Of a stretch of 64,000 bases of DNA, positions 41,971 through 50,092 are shown in pieces. Every line of letters begins with the position of its first letter. Within the stretch, counting starts at the first letter, position 1. Origin of the DNA: Lachnospiraceae bacterium (lineage in GTDB: Bacteria; Bacillota; Clostridia; Lachnospirales; Lachnospiraceae); the NCBI GenBank assembly GCA_016284175.1, contig JAEEOJ010000077.1, positions 1 to 64,000 on the forward strand, read 5' to 3'. Position numbers and translations under genes: made by a program. The notes beneath the pieces are model-generated. The model was not told where the DNA came from. It saw only the letters and a program-made list of their open reading frames with translations, and did not search any database.

Positions 41971-42004
41971 ACCTATTGACATGGTAGGTAAATACAAATA
42001 TAAT
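41971..42004 (+). promoter_or_regulatory. Promoter with ACCTA-N9-TAGGT operator-like palindrome (copy A)
   Basis: TTGACA (41976-41981), 17-nt spacer, TATAAT (41999-42004); ACCTATTGACATGGTAGGT overlaps -35. Confidence 0.75.
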
Positions 42005-42050
42005 CCGACTTATATTTTTAAATTTTCACATGATAAAGAGGATGATTGAA

Positions 42051-43238
42051 ATGTCGGAACAGAATTCAGACTTTGACTGCTGTATTCAAAGAAAGGGAAC
42101 GAATTGTTTAAAATATGATTTTGCTTTAAGAAGAGGGATGCCTGAAGATGTACTTCCTTTCTGGGTGGCAGATATGGACTTTGCGACTTCATCATATATT
42201 CAGGATGTTTTGAAAAAAAGAGCAATGCACCCGATATTCGGATACAGTGAAACTGGTGAAGAGTATTTTGATGCAGTGTCGGGATGGATGAAAAGACATC
42301 ATAATTGGGAAGTAAAAAGAAGCTGGTTAATCAAGACGCCTGGTGTGATATTCGCTGTCGCAATGGCTGTAAAAGCGTATACCGAACCCGGAGACAAAGT
42401 GCTTATTCAACGGCCGCTTTACTATCCTTTTGCAGAGACAATAATCGCCAATAACAGAGTCGCGGTAAGCAACAGCTTATATCTGGGAGAGGATAACAGA
42501 TACCATATTGATTTTGAGGATTTTGAAAAAAAGATTGTGGATAACAATATTAAATTATTTCTGCTTTGCAATCCTCACAATCCGTCAGGGCGTGATTTTA
42601 CCGGGGAAGAACTGACAAGGATAGGAGATATATGTCTTAAACATAATGTTACAGTGCTAAGCGATGAGATACACAATGATTTTGTATTCAAAGGAAAGCA
42701 CACAGTGTTTGCAAGCGTAAAAAAAGAATTTGAGGATATATGTGTCGTATGCACTTCTGCGAGCAAAACCTTTAATATAGCAACCATGCTTGTATCCAAC
42801 ATCTTTATTCCAAACAGAGATTTGAAAAAAAGATTTCAAAAAGAAGTTGATGCCGCCGGAATAAGCCAATTAAACATAATGGGACTCCTGGCGACTCAGG
42901 CAGCATATGAATACGGAGAAGAATGGTATGAGTCTATGCATGCGTATGTTAAAGGCAATATCGAATACGTCAAAGAATATGTTCATAGCAATCTTCCCGG
43001 AGTAAAAGTTATAGACTCAGAAGGAACTTACCTGATGTGGCTTGATTTCAGAAATACGGGTATCAACAGTGATGAGATCAACAGGAGGATGATTAATGAC
43101 GCAAGACTCTGGCTTGAGAGAGGAGAAATATTCGGAGAAGAAGGAGAAGGATTCCAACGTCTCAATATAGCCACTCCAAGAACAAATCTAACCGAATGTT
43201 TGGAAAGAATCAGAGAACACGTATTAAAAATATCATAA
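42051..43238 (+). CDS. MalY/PatB-type PLP-dependent aminotransferase / C-S beta-lyase
   Basis: LPFWVADMDFATSSYIQDVLKKRAMHPIFGYSE, LLCNPHNPSGRDF, CTSASKTFNIATM. Confidence 0.9.
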   Translation: MSEQNSDFDCCIQRKGTNCLKYDFALRRGMPEDVLPFWVADMDFATSSYIQDVLKKRAMHPIFGYSETGEEYFDAVSGWMKRHHNWEVKRSWLIKTPGVIFAVAMAVKAYTEPGDKVLIQRPLYYPFAETIIANNRVAVSNSLYLGEDNRYHIDFEDFEKKIVDNNIKLFLLCNPHNPSGRDFTGEELTRIGDICLKHNVTVLSDEIHNDFVFKGKHTVFASVKKEFEDICVVCTSASKTFNIATMLVSNIFIPNRDLKKRFQKEVDAAGISQLNIMGLLATQAAYEYGEEWYESMHAYVKGNIEYVKEYVHSNLPGVKVIDSEGTYLMWLDFRNTGINSDEINRRMINDARLWLERGEIFGEEGEGFQRLNIATPRTNLTECLERIREHVLKIS

Positions 43239-43248
43239 AAACATAAAA

Positions 43249-43282
43249 ACCTATTGACATAGTAGGTTAATGGTAGTATGAT
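43249..43282 (+). promoter_or_regulatory. Promoter with ACCTA-N9-TAGGT operator-like palindrome (copy B)
   Basis: TTGACA (43254-43259), 17-nt spacer, TATGAT (43277-43282); ACCTATTGACATAGTAGGT overlaps -35. Confidence 0.75.
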
Positions 43283-43304
43283 GCTGCGTAATGGAGAAAA
43301 AATT

Positions 43305-43406
43305 ATGAAAGAAGTTTGTTTATCAATTAGATATATATGTATGTGTATGTACATGTGTTCCTACCGAATGTGCCGGACTGGATTACAAACCGGGCGTTTG
43401 GCGTGA
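43305..43406 (+). CDS. Cys/Met-rich leader peptide MKEVCLSIRYICMCMYMCSYRMCRTGLQTGRLA
   Basis: RBS ggag 8 nt before ATG; 33 codons with 5 Cys and 5 Met; directly followed by antiterminator/terminator hairpins. Confidence 0.75.
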   Translation: MKEVCLSIRYICMCMYMCSYRMCRTGLQTGRLA

Positions 43407-43476
43407 TTTTTTGCGCGTGAAACGCCAACACGATGATTAAGTTTGTAAAGTCCGGTTCTTAAAGCCGGACTTTTTT
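43373..43476 (+). promoter_or_regulatory. Transcription attenuator: antiterminator (43373-43390 with 43441-43455) versus terminator (43448-43476)
   Basis: CCGGACT-gga-TTACAAAC pairs with GTTTGTAA-AGTCCGG; competing AAGTCCGG-ttcttaaag-CCGGACTT-TTTT terminator. Confidence 0.75.
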
Positions 43477-43499
43477 ATTAAACAAAAAGGAGACAGGAA

Positions 43500-44492
43500 A
43501 TGAAAAAAAACTTTATTAAGGCATTAAGTATTGCCATCACACTTTTTTTAACGGCAGGAACTTTCGCCGGATGTACAGGTAAAGAACCCCAAAATGTAAG
43601 TGACGGTAAGAAAAAGGTTACGATTGCTTATGCAGGCGGAACATGTGAGGCACCGGTATTTGCAGCATATCACAAGGGATTCTTTGAAGAAGAAGGACTC
43701 GAGGTTGAATTGGTTCAGGCAGGATTTGACGAATTAAAACAGGGTCTGGCAACAGGTAAGATTGATGCAGCCATGGCAAATATTGCATGGTTTAAGCCTA
43801 TTGAGCAGGGTATGGACTTAAAACTTACGGCAGGTATTCATACAGGATGTATAAAGGCTGTAGTTCCCGGAGATTCCGATATTAATTCCTTTGCGGATCT
43901 CAAAGGCAAGACGGTAGGTGTAGATGCCATCGGCGGTGGCCCGCAGATTGCTCTTTCTGCGAAACTCAGAGAAGAAGGTGTGGATCCAAATACTGAAGTC
44001 AATTGGGTTGCATACAGCGGCAATTTGTTGGATGAAGCAATTAAAAAGGGAGAAATCCAGGCATACATGACTTGGGATCCCTTTCCTACAAAAGCACATG
44101 ATAATGACGGATACAGATACCTTCTTGATATCGGGGCTGACGATCCTTTTAAGGATAAGTACTGCTGCTTCGTGGGCGTAAGTGCCAAATTGATAGAAAG
44201 TGATACGGAAACAGCAGGAAAGATTACCAAAGCTTTGATGAAGAGTTCGGAGTGGGTTCAGCAAAACCCTGTGGAGGCTGCGAAGATTTCTCTTGATAAC
44301 AATTATGTCGGCGGTGATGTAGATCTTAACTCGCAGCTTTTAAGCGAATACAACTGGACTCCCAGCGTAGAAGGCGCAAAAGAAAATATCAAATGGTATA
44401 TCCACGAACTTAAGGATCAGGGAATTCTTGAGAGTTCCACGGACGAAGATGCCCTTTTCAATGCAACTTTCGCAGATGTTATAAAAGAATAG
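43500..44492 (+). CDS. ABC transporter substrate-binding lipoprotein (SsuA/TauA/NMT1-like)
   Basis: Lipobox FAGCTG; TIAYAGGTCEAPVFAAYHKGFFEEEGLEVELVQAG. Confidence 0.9.
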   Translation: MKKNFIKALSIAITLFLTAGTFAGCTGKEPQNVSDGKKKVTIAYAGGTCEAPVFAAYHKGFFEEEGLEVELVQAGFDELKQGLATGKIDAAMANIAWFKPIEQGMDLKLTAGIHTGCIKAVVPGDSDINSFADLKGKTVGVDAIGGGPQIALSAKLREEGVDPNTEVNWVAYSGNLLDEAIKKGEIQAYMTWDPFPTKAHDNDGYRYLLDIGADDPFKDKYCCFVGVSAKLIESDTETAGKITKALMKSSEWVQQNPVEAAKISLDNNYVGGDVDLNSQLLSEYNWTPSVEGAKENIKWYIHELKDQGILESSTDEDALFNATFADVIKE

Positions 44493-44504
44493 TCGGGTGA
44501 AAAA

Positions 44505-45512
44505 ATGGCAAGTAATAACAGGGAAACGATATCTGATAAAAAAATCAATAAAACAAATAAAGCAAAAACAACGGGCATAATAAAAGGAATACTCCCTGCA
44601 GTAATAATTTTTTTCGCAATTGCGGAGCATTTGCTTATCCCAAATAAGCAGGTTGTATCTACAACGGGTGTATACAATAAGGTGTTAATGGCATCACTGA
44701 TTTTAAGCATAGCGGTTTTTATTATTTCTTTGATAAACAAGAAATTCGGGAAAGCGTATTTTTATAAAGCACCTTTTATAGCAGCAGTTTTCCTGTTCCT
44801 TGTTATATGGGATGTGGTGACTTTAAAACTGTCTCTCCTTCCGCTTCCGTTTTTTCCCGGACCGGATAAGGTATTGTATGTATTCGCATCAGATGGAGCA
44901 ATTTTATTAAAATGTGCGCTTTATTCAGTCAGATTATTACTGTGCGGATATCTGCTCGGAGCATCGTTTGGATTGTTCACGGGAACTTTGATCGGATGGA
45001 ATCAAAAGGCGGATTATTGGATAGGTCCTCTCTTAAGGATTATCGGACCGATACCTGCTACGGCATGGATTCCGATTGCGCTCGTAGCTTTTCCGACAAG
45101 CTTCCTGGCAAGTATATTCCTGATTGCACTGGCCGTATGGTTTCCTGTTACGGTAATGACAAGTACGGGAATTCACAATGTACAGAATTCGTATTTTGAA
45201 GTGGCAAAGACTCTCGGAGGCAATCAAAAATTTTTGGTATTTAAGGTAGCAATACCTGCAGCAATGCCTTCCATTTTCATAGGTTTGTTTATGGGTATGG
45301 GAACATCTTTTGCAACACTTATCGCGGCGGAAATGCTTGGAGTAAAAGCGGGACTTGGCTGGTATATTAACTGGTCGCAGGGATGGGCAGAATACAACAA
45401 GGTATACGCTTGTCTGATTGTTTTAGCTCTTATGTTTTCCGGACTTATCAAGTTGTTGTTCTTCGTTAAGGATAAACTTCTCGGATGGCAGAAAGGATTG
45501 ATCAAATGGTAG
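44505..45512 (+). CDS. ABC transporter permease (SsuC-like) with extra N-terminal TM segments
   Basis: GPIPATAWIPIALVAFPTSFLASIFLIALAVWFPVTVMTSTGIHNV permease signature. Confidence 0.9.
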   Translation: MASNNRETISDKKINKTNKAKTTGIIKGILPAVIIFFAIAEHLLIPNKQVVSTTGVYNKVLMASLILSIAVFIISLINKKFGKAYFYKAPFIAAVFLFLVIWDVVTLKLSLLPLPFFPGPDKVLYVFASDGAILLKCALYSVRLLLCGYLLGASFGLFTGTLIGWNQKADYWIGPLLRIIGPIPATAWIPIALVAFPTSFLASIFLIALAVWFPVTVMTSTGIHNVQNSYFEVAKTLGGNQKFLVFKVAIPAAMPSIFIGLFMGMGTSFATLIAAEMLGVKAGLGWYINWSQGWAEYNKVYACLIVLALMFSGLIKLLFFVKDKLLGWQKGLIKW

Positions 45513-46297
45513 ACGAAAGAAAAGGAGCATTATCCTTTAGAAATATTCATAAAGAATTCATTGATAACGACGGCAACAAATTTGTTGCATTGGACAATTT
45601 TTCGATGGATATACAACCCGGATCTTTTGTTTCATTGATTGGACCGAGCGGATGCGGAAAATCTACCCTGCTTAGAATGATTGCAGGTCTTGATACTCCC
45701 ACAAACGGAGAGATATTGCTTGATGACGAAAAGATAGACGGAACCAATCATGAACGCGGGCTGGTTTTCCAGCAAGCCAATCTGTTTCCCTGGCTTAATG
45801 TAAGAGAGAACGTGGCAACAGGGTTGGTAGCAAGAAAAGTATATAAAGAAAATAAAGATGAAGTGGATAAATACATAAAACTGGTCGGATTATCCGGTTT
45901 TGAAAAGTCTTATCCTCATCAGTTATCGGGTGGTATGGCACAAAGAGTATCTCTTGTCAGGGTACTGGTTAACAAGCCCAAAGTATTGCTTCTCGATGAG
46001 CCTTTGGGAGCGCTAGATGCTTTTACCAGGATGAATATGCAGGATGAGATACTAAAGATTTGGCGGGAACAAAAAGTAACGGTTATTCTTGTCACGCATG
46101 ATGTTGATGAAGCGGTTTATATGAGTGATACGATCGTTATTCTCTCTTCCAGACCCGGACGTATACAGGAAGTTATCAAATTAAGGCAGAATCGAACCAG
46201 ATCGCGTAATTATCCTGACTTTGTTGATTTAAGAACAAGAATACTTGAAAAACTCAATTTCGCAAGTACGGAAGATACGGCAGGATATTACATTTAA
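45506..46297 (+). CDS. ABC transporter ATP-binding protein (SsuB/TauB-like)
   Basis: GPSGCGKSTLLRMIAGLD, LSGGMAQRVSLVRVLVNKPKVLLLDEPLGALDAFTR; ATGGTAG overlap with the permease stop. Confidence 0.93.
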   Translation: MVDERKGALSFRNIHKEFIDNDGNKFVALDNFSMDIQPGSFVSLIGPSGCGKSTLLRMIAGLDTPTNGEILLDDEKIDGTNHERGLVFQQANLFPWLNVRENVATGLVARKVYKENKDEVDKYIKLVGLSGFEKSYPHQLSGGMAQRVSLVRVLVNKPKVLLLDEPLGALDAFTRMNMQDEILKIWREQKVTVILVTHDVDEAVYMSDTIVILSSRPGRIQEVIKLRQNRTRSRNYPDFVDLRTRILEKLNFASTEDTAGYYI

Positions 46298-46360
46298 GGT
46301 GTCAAAAAAAAGGGTAGAAAGGTTATCTGATGTCCAAAAGCCATCGGATAAAAAAGAAAG

Positions 46361-47821
46361 ATGAAAGTAGCAAACAACATTACGGAATTAATTGGAAATA
46401 CACCGCTTGTCAGACTTGAAAAGATTAATCCTTACGGAGCGGAAATATTGGTTAAATTGGAAAGTTTCAATCCTCTCTCGAGTGTAAAAGACAGGGTTGC
46501 GCTTGCAATGATTGAAGAAGCAGAAAAAAGCGGCAAGATTAAACCCGGAGATGTTCTGATTGAGCCCACAAGCGGCAATACGGGAATAGGACTTGCTTAT
46601 GTAAGTGCTGTTAAAGGATATAAGCTTATTCTCACAATGCCCGAAACCATGAGTATCGAACGAAGAAAGATTCTTAAGGCGTTGGGAGCAAAGATTGTGT
46701 TAACCGAGGCATATGACGGTATGGAGGGAGCGGTTGCAAAAGCAAAAGAATTAGCTGCAACAATTCCCAATTCGTTTATTCCTCAGCAGTTTGACAATCC
46801 CGTCAATCCCGAGGCACACAGAAAAACAACGGCAGTAGAGATTCTTAACGATCTTGATGGAGAAGTAGATATCTTTGTTGCCGGAGTAGGTACAGGCGGA
46901 ACGATAACAGGCGTAGGCGAGGTATTGAAAAAGAATAATCCCAATGTAAAAGTAGTAGCTGTAGAGCCGTTTAAATCTGCGGTTCTCTCAGGAGGAATAG
47001 CACAACCTCATCGTATTCAGGGTATAGGAGCAGGCTTTATTCCCAGCATACTCAATACGTCTATTATTGATGAAATACTGACCGTAACCGACGAGGATGC
47101 AAGTGATATAGCTCACAAACTTGCAAAGAATGAGGGTATTCTCGTTGGTATTTCTTCAGCGGCAGCAGTGTGGGCAGCACTTGAATTGGCCAAGAGAGAA
47201 GAGAATAAGGGAAAGAGAATAGTAACGCTTCTTCCTGATTCGGGAGAAAGATATTTAAGTACATGGCTTTACGAAGAATTTGCTGTTAACAATACCGAGA
47301 ACAAGAGATTGAATGACGAGATTATCAGAGATCTTAACAAGGAACTTCCGCCTGCAGTTGCATTGTCTCATGAGTATTTTAAAAACGGATTGTATTGTTC
47401 GGAAGCAATACTTCGAGCATTCAATGAGGTATATAATCTGGGATTTCCTGCAGAATTTTATAAAATATCCACCGGTTTTGGAGCCGGACTCGGAGAGTCG
47501 GGATGCTCTTGCGGTTCCGTGACAGGTGCTGCAATGGTGCTTAGTATTATCACCGGACGAAACGTCAATTATGAGTCGGAAAGACTTGCGTTCTCACTTA
47601 TAAATGAACTTCATGACAGATTCAAAAACAAAAATAAAGCAATCTGTTGTCGTGCTTTAACAAGAAATGTCGTATGGGGAGCAGCAGAACATCATATGTT
47701 ATGTGAGGATTACGTTGTAGATGCTGCACTGATAACAGATGAAATAATCAAAAGAGACCTCAAGGAATTTTTACCCAATCTTGATAAGGGATTTATTGAG
47801 GCTCACGCGGAGGGAAAATAA
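46361..47821 (+). CDS. cysK: Cysteine synthase (CysK) fused to a C_GCAxxG_C_C-type redox domain
   Basis: ITELIGNTPLVRLEKINP, KLESFNPLSSVKDRVA, EPTSGNTGIGLAYV; tail YCSEAILRAFNEVY...GAGLGESGCSCGSVTGAAMVLSIITG...ICCRALT. Confidence 0.9.
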   Translation: MKVANNITELIGNTPLVRLEKINPYGAEILVKLESFNPLSSVKDRVALAMIEEAEKSGKIKPGDVLIEPTSGNTGIGLAYVSAVKGYKLILTMPETMSIERRKILKALGAKIVLTEAYDGMEGAVAKAKELAATIPNSFIPQQFDNPVNPEAHRKTTAVEILNDLDGEVDIFVAGVGTGGTITGVGEVLKKNNPNVKVVAVEPFKSAVLSGGIAQPHRIQGIGAGFIPSILNTSIIDEILTVTDEDASDIAHKLAKNEGILVGISSAAAVWAALELAKREENKGKRIVTLLPDSGERYLSTWLYEEFAVNNTENKRLNDEIIRDLNKELPPAVALSHEYFKNGLYCSEAILRAFNEVYNLGFPAEFYKISTGFGAGLGESGCSCGSVTGAAMVLSIITGRNVNYESERLAFSLINELHDRFKNKNKAICCRALTRNVVWGAAEHHMLCEDYVVDAALITDEIIKRDLKEFLPNLDKGFIEAHAEGK

Positions 47822-48240
47822 TGAATTTTTTTAAGAAGAATGCCGCAGGCATAGCGGAATTATTGATAAGCATTATACTTACTGTCGGTGTATTTACTTT
47901 GTTTAAGGCATGCGGCCTTCACGAAGGCAAGGCAATGGCCTGTCATTGGGCGGAAAATACGGTAAAAGCGCTTGGAATTGCGTTCATCACTTTAAGTGCG
48001 ATTCGTCTGATTGTAAAAGAAGAAGGAGTCAAGAAAGGAATAGCATTGGCATTTGTTCCTCTTTCTGTTCTTACGTTCCTGGTTCCCGGGAAGATTATAT
48101 CTTTATGCATGATGGATACGATGAGATGTCAGACTTCATTCAAGCCGTTCGTAATAGTATTGTCTGTTGTGCTGGCTCTGATTTCCCTGGCTGATGTGGT
48201 TATTCTTTCGCTTGGAAAGAAAAACAATAATAAACAATGA
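47821..48240 (+). CDS. DUF4418-like membrane protein
   Basis: Four TM segments; FKACGLHEGKAMACHWAENTVKALG, MMDTMRCQT. Confidence 0.75.
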   Translation: MNFFKKNAAGIAELLISIILTVGVFTLFKACGLHEGKAMACHWAENTVKALGIAFITLSAIRLIVKEEGVKKGIALAFVPLSVLTFLVPGKIISLCMMDTMRCQTSFKPFVIVLSVVLALISLADVVILSLGKKNNNKQ

Positions 48241-49436
48241 ATGTTAAAAGACTGATTATCAAAAATATAATTAAAAGACCGGTTAAGACAGCATTGCTAT
48301 CCTCAATGGCATTATTAATGGCTTTCGCAATTCTTGCAGGAGCCAATTTGAGTAAAAGCCTAATAAGAGGGTTAAACAGCATGGAAGCGAGACTTGGAGC
48401 GGATATTATTGTTATTCCGAAAGGTGCAAAGTCCGAAGAGGAACTTAAAAATATCTATTTTAAGGGAACACCGGAAAACTTTTATATGGATAAATCCATT
48501 GTGTCCGATCTTGCCTCAGTTGAGGGAGTGGAGGATTATTCGATTCAGTATTTTTTGGCTTCATCGGTGTCGGATTGCTGCTCTGCGCCTGTGCAAATAG
48601 TAGGGTTTGATCCTGAAAATGATTTTGTGGTTGCTCCCTGGATAAAAGACAATTTCAAGGGTCAACCGGGAAAAGACGAGATAATCGCCGGGAGCAGCCT
48701 TTCTGTTCAAACGGGAGAAAGTCTGAAAATTTATGGAATTGAGTGTTTGGTAGTAGGAAAACTCAGTTCCACCGGCACAGGTCTTGATACTGCGGTGTAT
48801 GCCAACGAAGAGACGATAAAACATCTCATAGAAGCATCAAAAGAAGTGGGACTTAGCATGGTCGGAGAAAAGAGCCCGGACGAGACGGTTTCGGCTGTGT
48901 ATATTAAAGTAAAAAAAGGATATGATATCAGTGTGGTCTCAAGCACGATAAATATAAATTTTAAGGATCGGGTTGAGGCTGTGAGAACAAAGAGCATGAT
49001 ATCCGATACTGTTAAAAGATTGGATGATGTTTCGAAAATCATATACGCCTTGGTGACAGGGATATGGGTGTTTTCAATCATCATTATGGGATTAGTATTT
49101 TCGGTCAGCATCGGCGAGAGAAAGAGTGAATTTGCTCTTCTTCGCGCAATGGGATTTTCCAAAATCAAAATTGTCTCACTAATTTTCACTGAGTCGATGA
49201 TTATATGCTTGATCGGATCGGTTCTTGGAATTGTCCTTTCATTGGTGATTATCATATCATTTGGAAATATGATTGAAGGGTACCTGGGATTGCCTTTTCT
49301 TTTACCGAACTTTTTAAATACGGTTTTATATTCATTTTTGGCACTTTTTATCACGGTACTCACCGGACCGATAACGGCTTCGATATCTACAATGGGCGTA
49401 TGCAGGGAAGACATAGGCAATGCATTAAGAAGGTAG
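48237..49436 (+). CDS. FtsX-like ABC transporter permease
   Basis: MacB-like periplasmic region and C-terminal FtsX segments SVSIGERKSEFALLRAMGFSKIKIVSLIFTES. Confidence 0.9.
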   Translation: MNVKRLIIKNIIKRPVKTALLSSMALLMAFAILAGANLSKSLIRGLNSMEARLGADIIVIPKGAKSEEELKNIYFKGTPENFYMDKSIVSDLASVEGVEDYSIQYFLASSVSDCCSAPVQIVGFDPENDFVVAPWIKDNFKGQPGKDEIIAGSSLSVQTGESLKIYGIECLVVGKLSSTGTGLDTAVYANEETIKHLIEASKEVGLSMVGEKSPDETVSAVYIKVKKGYDISVVSSTININFKDRVEAVRTKSMISDTVKRLDDVSKIIYALVTGIWVFSIIIMGLVFSVSIGERKSEFALLRAMGFSKIKIVSLIFTESMIICLIGSVLGIVLSLVIIISFGNMIEGYLGLPFLLPNFLNTVLYSFLALFITVLTGPITASISTMGVCREDIGNALRR

Positions 49437-49444
49437 AATGGTAT

Positions 49445-50092
49445 ATGATTAAGGTTAATAATGTCAGTAAAAAGTATACGCTAAAAAACAGGGAGATTTT
49501 CGCTCTAAACGATACTTCTCTTTCTATCGAAGACAGCAAACTGGCTGTAATACACGGTAAGTCGGGAAGCGGGAAGACAACTCTTTTGAATATAATGGCA
49601 GGACTGTTGCCTCCCTCAAACGGCAGCATATCGCTTGACGGTGTAGATCCGTATCTGCTTGGAGATAAAGAATTATCTTTATTCAGAAATAAAAATATAG
49701 GATATATCCCTCAGGGAACAAGCGGTGTGAGCAGTCTTACGGTCTTGGAAAATGTGATGCTTCCCGCCAATATATATGGGGTAAATGATATAAAAGAAAA
49801 AGCTGTCAGTCTCTTAAAAGATCTTGGGCTTGAGAATCTTATGGATTCTTATCCTGCTGAGTTATCCGGCGGAGAATTAAGACGTGTCTCAATTGCAAGA
49901 GCGATTATTAATTCACCAAAGATGATATTTGCGGACGAACCCACCAATGACCTTGATAAAGAAAACACCGAATTTGTATTAAAATTACTTAAAGAAAAAA
50001 GCCGTGAGGGAATGAGTGTCGTAATTGTATCCCATGACGAAGCAGCAATGAAGTATGCCGATGATGTTATCCGAATGGGTTCAATTCAATAA
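49445..50092 (+). CDS. ABC transporter ATP-binding protein (LolD/MacB-like)
   Basis: HGKSGSGKTTLLNIMAGLLPP, ELSGGELRRVSIARAIINSPKMIFADEPTNDLD. Confidence 0.93.
   Translation: MIKVNNVSKKYTLKNREIFALNDTSLSIEDSKLAVIHGKSGSGKTTLLNIMAGLLPPSNGSISLDGVDPYLLGDKELSLFRNKNIGYIPQGTSGVSSLTVLENVMLPANIYGVNDIKEKAVSLLKDLGLENLMDSYPAELSGGELRRVSIARAIINSPKMIFADEPTNDLDKENTEFVLKLLKEKSREGMSVVIVSHDEAAMKYADDVIRMGSIQ

Follow-up and report, generated by a model that had tools for sequence, protein, structure and literature searches.

Between the promoter and the first gene of an operon for sulfur uptake and cysteine synthesis, a Lachnospiraceae genome carries a short Cys-rich open reading frame (ORF) and an intrinsic terminator. 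This arrangement raises the question of whether translation of the ORF decides if transcription proceeds into the operon, and whether the same design recurs elsewhere. We analysed the window, the whole stretch of 64,000 nucleotides that contains the locus (contig JAEEOJ010000077.1), together with loci from related genomes. A previous sequence-only reading had proposed ribosome-mediated attenuation, and the proposal gained support from folding of the RNA with a masked ribosome, from the constraint between transcript start and terminator in the sister species G318, and from independent Cys-run leaders at other cysteine and sulfur operons. Judged by computation alone, the element is very probably a cysteine-responsive, trp-type ribosome-mediated transcription attenuator that senses Cys-tRNA.

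Layout of the locus and its operon

The coordinates of the elements are collected in Table 1. The ggag ribosome-binding site and the 33-codon ORF that had been read from the sequence are both present, and they place a Shine-Dalgarno sequence (SD) and a short translatable ORF between promoter and structural genes, as in leader-peptide attenuators. The promoter combines a -35 box TTGACA (43254-43259), which lies inside the operator palindrome, with a 17-bp spacer and a -10 box TATGAT (43277-43282; TATTAT in G318), giving a predicted transcript start near 43289. The leader contains five Cys codons, at positions 5, 12, 14, 18 and 23, and thus a codon run for the amino acid that the operon supplies through CysK and a sulfur transporter. 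Among SD-preceded ORFs of at most 45 codons, the leader is the only one on the plus strand of the 64-kb window with 3 Cys in 7 residues, and the minus strand holds 4, so Cys content by itself is weak evidence; the run also sits in a low-complexity ATGT/TGTA (TATG/TGTA-like) stretch.

Table 1. Features of the window and of related loci
Feature	Location	Strand	Basis or remark
Second operator CCTATTGACATGGTAGG, 5' of the PatB-type C-S lyase gene (42030-43238)	41972-41988	+	
Operator palindrome CCTATTGACATAGTAGG (CCTA-N9-TAGG), probable Rrf2/CymR-like site	43250-43266	+	
Sigma-70 type promoter	43254-43282	+	direct reading
Shine-Dalgarno GGAG	43293-43296	+	direct reading; 8 nt 5' of ATG
Leader peptide ORF, MKEVCLSIRYICMCMYMCSYRMCRTGLQTGRLA and stop	43305-43406	+	
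Predicted regulatory Cys codons C12, C14, C18	43338-43358	+	masked folding; a stall here would keep the antiterminator arm accessible
Antiterminator 5' arm CCGGACT-gga-TTACAAAC	43373-43390	+	starts 14 nt past the C18 codon
Stable hairpin within the antiterminator loop	43393-43426	+	overlaps ORF end and stop codon
Antiterminator 3' arm GTTTGTAAAGTCCGG	43441-43455	+	final 8 bases common to terminator 5' arm
Intrinsic terminator hairpin	43448-43476	+	U tract 43471-43476; about -15 kcal/mol
SsuA/NMT1-like substrate-binding lipoprotein, first regulated gene	43500-44492	+	TIGR01728 8e-27, PF13379
ABC permease (44505-45512) and ATPase (45485-46297), SsuC/SsuB-like	44505-46297	+	
Cysteine synthase CysK fused to C_GCAxxG_C_C domain	46361-47821	+	TIGR01139 6e-140, PF09719 4e-26
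Operon continuation: DUF4418 membrane protein, FtsX-like permease, ATPase	47821-50092	+	similar gene order in L056, L063, L080
Leader MKKCFLSMMIMKMCMYRCC..., before SsuC-SsuB-SsuA operon	L050		
Leader MQMCCMCCMCSTC, before cysK	L063		
Leader before cysK	L080		
Leader with ICMCITMC, upstream of tRNA-Cys gene and NifB-like gene	L056		
Pairing AUGCAU..GUACCUG with CAGGUGU.AUGCAU	L163		by eye
Pairing ACACUUUAU with AUAAAGUGU	L159		by eye
Pairing CUUUAUG with CAUAAAG	L139		by eye
Pairing GCACU.GUG with CAC.AGUGC	L255		by eye
tRNA-Cys (gca) genes	L056:8552-8622, L066:12402-12471, L247:2893-2962, L248:384-455, L249:290-359		
CTGACTGGAAA element	L036:1410-1475, L037:1430-1495; also L058, L065, L081 (upstream of SsuA); L253		
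Palindrome TTATC-N6-GATAA	L036, L037, L056, L063, L066, L080		

Domain matches to SsuA, an SsuC/SsuB-like transporter and the CysK fusion bear out the earlier view that the downstream genes fit sulfur amino acid control. CysK and its C_GCAxxG_C_C redox domain are joined in a single 486-aa protein. Near cysK, the order NMT1-like binding protein, permease, ATPase, DUF4418-type membrane protein, FtsX-like permease and ATPase is conserved between the window (43500-50092) and the loci L056, L063 and L080.

The operator was followed through the same genome and through cysK upstream regions. Its stricter form, CCTAYN7RTAGG, occurs at 7 sites in the genome, of which 4 precede sulfur genes (patB, the window ssu operon, metY-cysK and a cysteine desulfurase gene), and CCTA-N9-TAGG is found in 43 of 90 cysK upstream regions, with 0.7% per region expected. 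The genome-wide operator count is not above that of a reversed-pattern control, and the support for the operator is its placement before sulfur genes, not its raw count. An Rrf2 gene lies directly 3' of cysK in this genome and another upstream of the L050 leader. As in a CymR/Rrf2 regulon, cysteine genes thus have a common operator in a genome that encodes an Rrf2 protein, and from the shared operator and the neighbouring Rrf2 genes we infer that a CymR-like protein of this family likely binds and represses the window promoter in response to cysteine.

Competing hairpins and ribosome position

The antiterminator proposed between the two arms is a perfect 15-bp pairing, and the AGTCCGG arm is, as had been claimed, common to it and to the U-tracted terminator, which makes antiterminator and intrinsic terminator mutually exclusive. 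Pairing of the upstream RNA with the terminator 5' arm reaches -18.9 kcal/mol, compared with a shuffle mean of -9.4 and with none of 5000 dinucleotide shuffles as good, and this antiterminator is the strongest competitor among the 41 terminator-like sites in the 64-kb window. The folding z-score of the leader is -3.1.

We folded the leader at equilibrium while keeping the footprint of a ribosome unpaired codon by codon, and in this model the position of the ribosome sets the outcome. With the ribosome at C12, C14 or C18 the outer pair of the antiterminator has a probability of about 0.76-0.83 and the terminator one of 0.13-0.17; with the ribosome at C23 or at the stop codon the terminator probability rises to 0.84-1.0. 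Codon-resolved folding therefore returns the antiterminator at the Cys codons and the terminator beyond them, as the sequence-only reading had anticipated. Its statement that 43373-43390 is covered once translation reaches the stop codon holds for the 3' end of the arm only (about 43386 onward), which in the folding suffices for a terminator probability of 0.87-0.97. The window RNA takes the antiterminator fold when no ribosome is present, and uncoupled transcription, or a start-codon mutant, is therefore predicted to read through.

These results suggest the following course of events. RNA polymerase would start near 43289, at a promoter that the CymR-like Rrf2 protein probably represses at high cysteine, and a ribosome would translate the leader peptide behind it. 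If Cys-tRNA were scarce, the ribosome would wait at C12, C14 or C18 with its leading edge just short of 43373, and 43373-43390 would then be free to pair with 43441-43455, blocking the terminator and allowing transcription of the SsuA-SsuC-SsuB-CysK operon. With plentiful Cys-tRNA the ribosome would move over 43373-43390, the antiterminator would be blocked, and the terminator at 43448-43476 would form and stop transcription. Translation of the ORF, stalling at low Cys-tRNA and the choice between hairpins in vivo are all steps that we infer in this scheme.

Conservation and recurrence of Cys-run leaders

G318 carries the same operon, with an SsuA gene 5.8% divergent at the DNA level. From transcript start to U tract its leader shows 0/187 changes, compared with 9/72 in the intergenic bases flanking the leader block, 14-17% at third codon positions of SsuA and CysK, and 10% in the intergenic gap before CysK; the chance of 0/187 is about 1e-11 at the flank rate and about 0.02 at the rate of the slowest neighbouring gene (PatB, 2.2%). 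The operator is kept at 17/17 bases. This sole relative of the window leader is too similar for covariation, and the covariation evidence comes from other leaders.

Searches with the window leader returned little beyond this pair. Among 299 family genomes the best peptide match besides the window had E = 7e-4, and the matches inspected either overlapped other reading frames or had no start codon. A DNA search of 31 genus genomes recovered the own genome and G318 only, three weaker matches being due to chance, and a covariance model of the window leader found, in 392 order genomes, itself and two weak matches with E > 0.01. A family-level SsuA search of 397 genomes yielded no close ortholog; the nearest named relative (L045, 64%) has no leader, and upstream of the SsuA homologs L034-L082 no SsuA gene is directly preceded by a Cys leader. 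The leader therefore does not travel with SsuA, and the expectation that homologous loci keep the Cys enrichment fails before SsuA homologs and holds before other operons of the cysteine regulon, including the SsuC-first operon of L050.

When the fetched loci were screened for an SD, a short ORF and a terminator, four further Cys-rich leaders emerged (L050, L063, L080 and L056). In related Clostridia, Cys-run leaders, most of them with a terminator, precede cysK, metY, a MetQ-like protein gene and a second SsuCBA operon. Family cysK upstream regions contain SD-preceded Cys-run leaders in 10 of 110 cases, with 0.43 expected from shuffles; their runs include CCCC, CMCCC and CCCRCC, and a terminator is present in at least 8 of the 10. 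For the Cys runs of L154 and L158 a terminator was looked for and none was found. A covariance model built from 7 cysK leaders, aligned from Cys run to U tract, was applied blind to genes across 397 genomes and detected five new loci at E <= 2e-6, four of which encode the Cys runs MCMMMCCC, MCCCC, CMCCC or RRCCC and the fifth MCMCF. The genes adjoining the new loci include those for a MetQ-like binding protein and a NifB-like protein.

Most leaders hold, downstream of the Cys run and frequently near the stop codon, a segment that can pair with their own terminator arm (examples in Table 1). Shuffle tests of single cysK antiterminators were mostly not significant, and for this reason a swap test was used: exchanging terminators among leaders weakens the pairing, with permutation p = 0.00005 for all 18 and p = 0.00015 for the cysK group, whose switch has its main support in this test. 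At equilibrium the terminator is favoured at every ribosome position in most members of the cysK group. Given this bias and the weak single-locus tests, the switch of the cysK group is either kinetic or less certain than that of the window. For L050 and L056, masked folding, shuffle and swap tests gave no clear antiterminator.

A leader of the same geometry as that of the window occurs in the same genus, before the metY-cysK operon of the near-complete genome G120. It follows the operator CCTATTGACACAGTAGG and reads MFGNYVNLTTEYMCCCRMQYSRACNLAGAFD (MFGNYVNLTTEYMCCC...); in it CTCCCGGGC, 11 nt past the Cys run, pairs perfectly with the terminator arm GCCCGGGAG (p = 0.001). In masked folding the antiterminator probability is about 1 with the ribosome on any codon of the Cys run, and just beyond the run the terminator probability is about 1, a switch even sharper than that of the window leader. 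A ribosome parked at the stop codon again permits the antiterminator in the folding, so timing matters for this switch. The window's own genome has a metY-cysK-Rrf2 operon (L292, G000 C129 21400-22400) with the operator and MAKDYIIDFVKNILLIRMCSRCRCCF, and L305 (1096-1179) has the leader MKKLLISFVRHNCKYQRMQGCCCCYCC before metY; in both the Cys run lies at the stop codon, and an intrinsic terminator was seen in neither. Such stop-proximal Cys runs may represent a second, terminator-free subtype.

Other elements accompany these operons. The cysK upstream region L155/L259 keeps the terminator and part of a leader with no Cys-run ORF, perhaps a decayed attenuator. In several genomes tRNA-Cys (gca) genes lie near cysK or Cys-leader operons, and with this adjacency charging capacity and supply may be co-regulated. 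A short element, CTGACTGGAAA(A/G)ACC(A/G)GAGG, with a matching terminator directly 3' of it and no Cys ORF, is found mostly between a LysR gene and an SsuA gene; in L253 it stands just after the first terminator, in tandem with a Cys leader attenuator. The palindrome TTATC-N6-GATAA occurs before promoters adjoining LysR genes, upstream of SsuA or of leaders, and may serve this family of sulfur operons as a LysR operator.

Alternative readings and known systems

The leader could instead act as an arrest peptide: stalling would be brought about by a conserved nascent chain, such as the tail CRTGLQTGRLA, with a metabolite and not uncharged Cys-tRNA as the cue. The window tail is indeed identical in both species, and the cysK leader group has a common tail type, VCMNTVYFSY, but between groups the leaders are unrelated outside the Cys run, and the tails have an explanation in the RNA, that of the cysK group in the hairpin CUGUAU/AUACGG and that of the window in the antiterminator arm, which leaves this reading very unlikely. 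Another reading takes the ORF for the gene of a small functional Cys-rich protein and the hairpin for an ordinary intergenic terminator, which we regard as highly improbable: the SD and start codon would suit such a gene, whereas leader sequences vary freely outside the Cys run, the terminator stands between the promoter and the operon, the arms pair better than by chance and the pairing partners co-vary.

The nature of the signal was also considered. Met and Cys codons alternate in the leaders of the window, L050, L063 and L080, as would suit an attenuator that senses general translation stalling, or Cys plus Met limitation, in place of cysteine specifically. However, Cys runs are present in nearly all leaders while Met content is variable, L153, L163 and L188 carry CCC or CCCC but no Met runs, and the regulated genes serve cysteine and sulfur supply, those of the window and of related leaders making or importing cysteine or its sulfur; we consider such a broader signal unlikely. 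Of the Cys/Met-rich character first ascribed to the leader, the Cys part stands as the common signal, and Met shows no consistent enrichment in relatives and is not supported as a separate signal. A T-box or sulfur riboswitch with an ORF arising by chance would have precedent, as the cysK of Clostridium perfringens is under a Cys T-box that senses Cys-tRNA charging through transcription termination (PMC2940859), and the own genome gives six T-box matches elsewhere. The T-box covariance model has no match in the window, though, and neither S-box nor any other Rfam riboswitch reaches its gathering score in the window leader or in related leaders. We therefore hold this explanation to be exceedingly improbable, in agreement with the earlier remark that T-box and S-box control do not use such a design; a T-box RNA, moreover, binds tRNA directly without a ribosome.

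The cysteine-responsive attenuator that we favour resembles the trp, his, leu and ilv attenuators of Proteobacteria in its leader ORF of cognate codons, in its control of the cognate pathway and in an antiterminator and an intrinsic terminator that share one arm. It differs from the trp type in its cysteine signal, its Clostridia host, the operator CCTA-N9-TAGG overlapping the promoter, and the predicted readthrough of its ribosome-free RNA. In Firmicutes, where amino-acid leader peptides are thought uncommon (PMC2965389), ribosome-mediated attenuators are represented by Rli60 of Listeria monocytogenes, which responds to branched-chain amino acids below the global repressor CodY (PMC5864092), and by the His leader peptide before hisS*/hisZ in bacilli (PMC2965389); the window attenuator is of the same kind, with cysteine as its signal instead. 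Among the Cys leaders known or predicted in other bacteria, and compared by description, uORFC-8-2 before cysS in Rhodobacterales, a tandem-Cys leader ORF followed by a terminator where stalling is proposed to cause readthrough (PMC8632094), is alike in combining Cys leader and terminator, the present cases lying in Clostridia before cysK, metY and sulfur transporters. Actinobacterial Cys-run leaders before cys operons have no obvious terminator (PMC1262725), and the polycysteine leaderless ORFs of mycobacteria are reported to act by translation attenuation in M. smegmatis (Canestrari 2020, as cited in PMC13236596). The Cys-run ORF before a cys operon is the common trait, while the window leader has an SD and an intrinsic terminator in place of a leaderless start without one. 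Cys runs close to the stop codon, as in G000 C129 and L305, are nearer to the actinobacterial leaders than the window leader is.

A literature search, with most subscription papers outside its reach, found no Cys leader attenuation described in Firmicutes, and the window attenuator is apparently one case of a recurrent group in Clostridia not described before. No Rfam family matches the window leader or the related leaders, and automatic annotation therefore misses them. Lachnospiraceae and related Clostridia probably possess an undescribed regulon of cysteine leader-peptide attenuators, with several unrelated Cys-run leaders, that covers ssu operons, cysK, metY, a MetQ-like protein and tRNA-Cys/NifB-like genes, often under an Rrf2 operator; on the same probable reading it includes the terminator-free subtype, whose Cys run lies at the stop codon, and takes the place that Cys T-boxes have in C. 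perfringens. The Cys run is the only evident sequence that the leader groups have in common, and these relatives therefore suggest that amino-acid leader peptides of Firmicutes arose more than once for the cysteine signal. Several clostridia have no T-box before cysK, and other mechanisms may exist there (PMC2940859). This left the control of cysteine supply in clostridia partly open, and a concrete, testable mechanism for it now comes from the window locus and its relatives in abundant gut and rumen bacteria.
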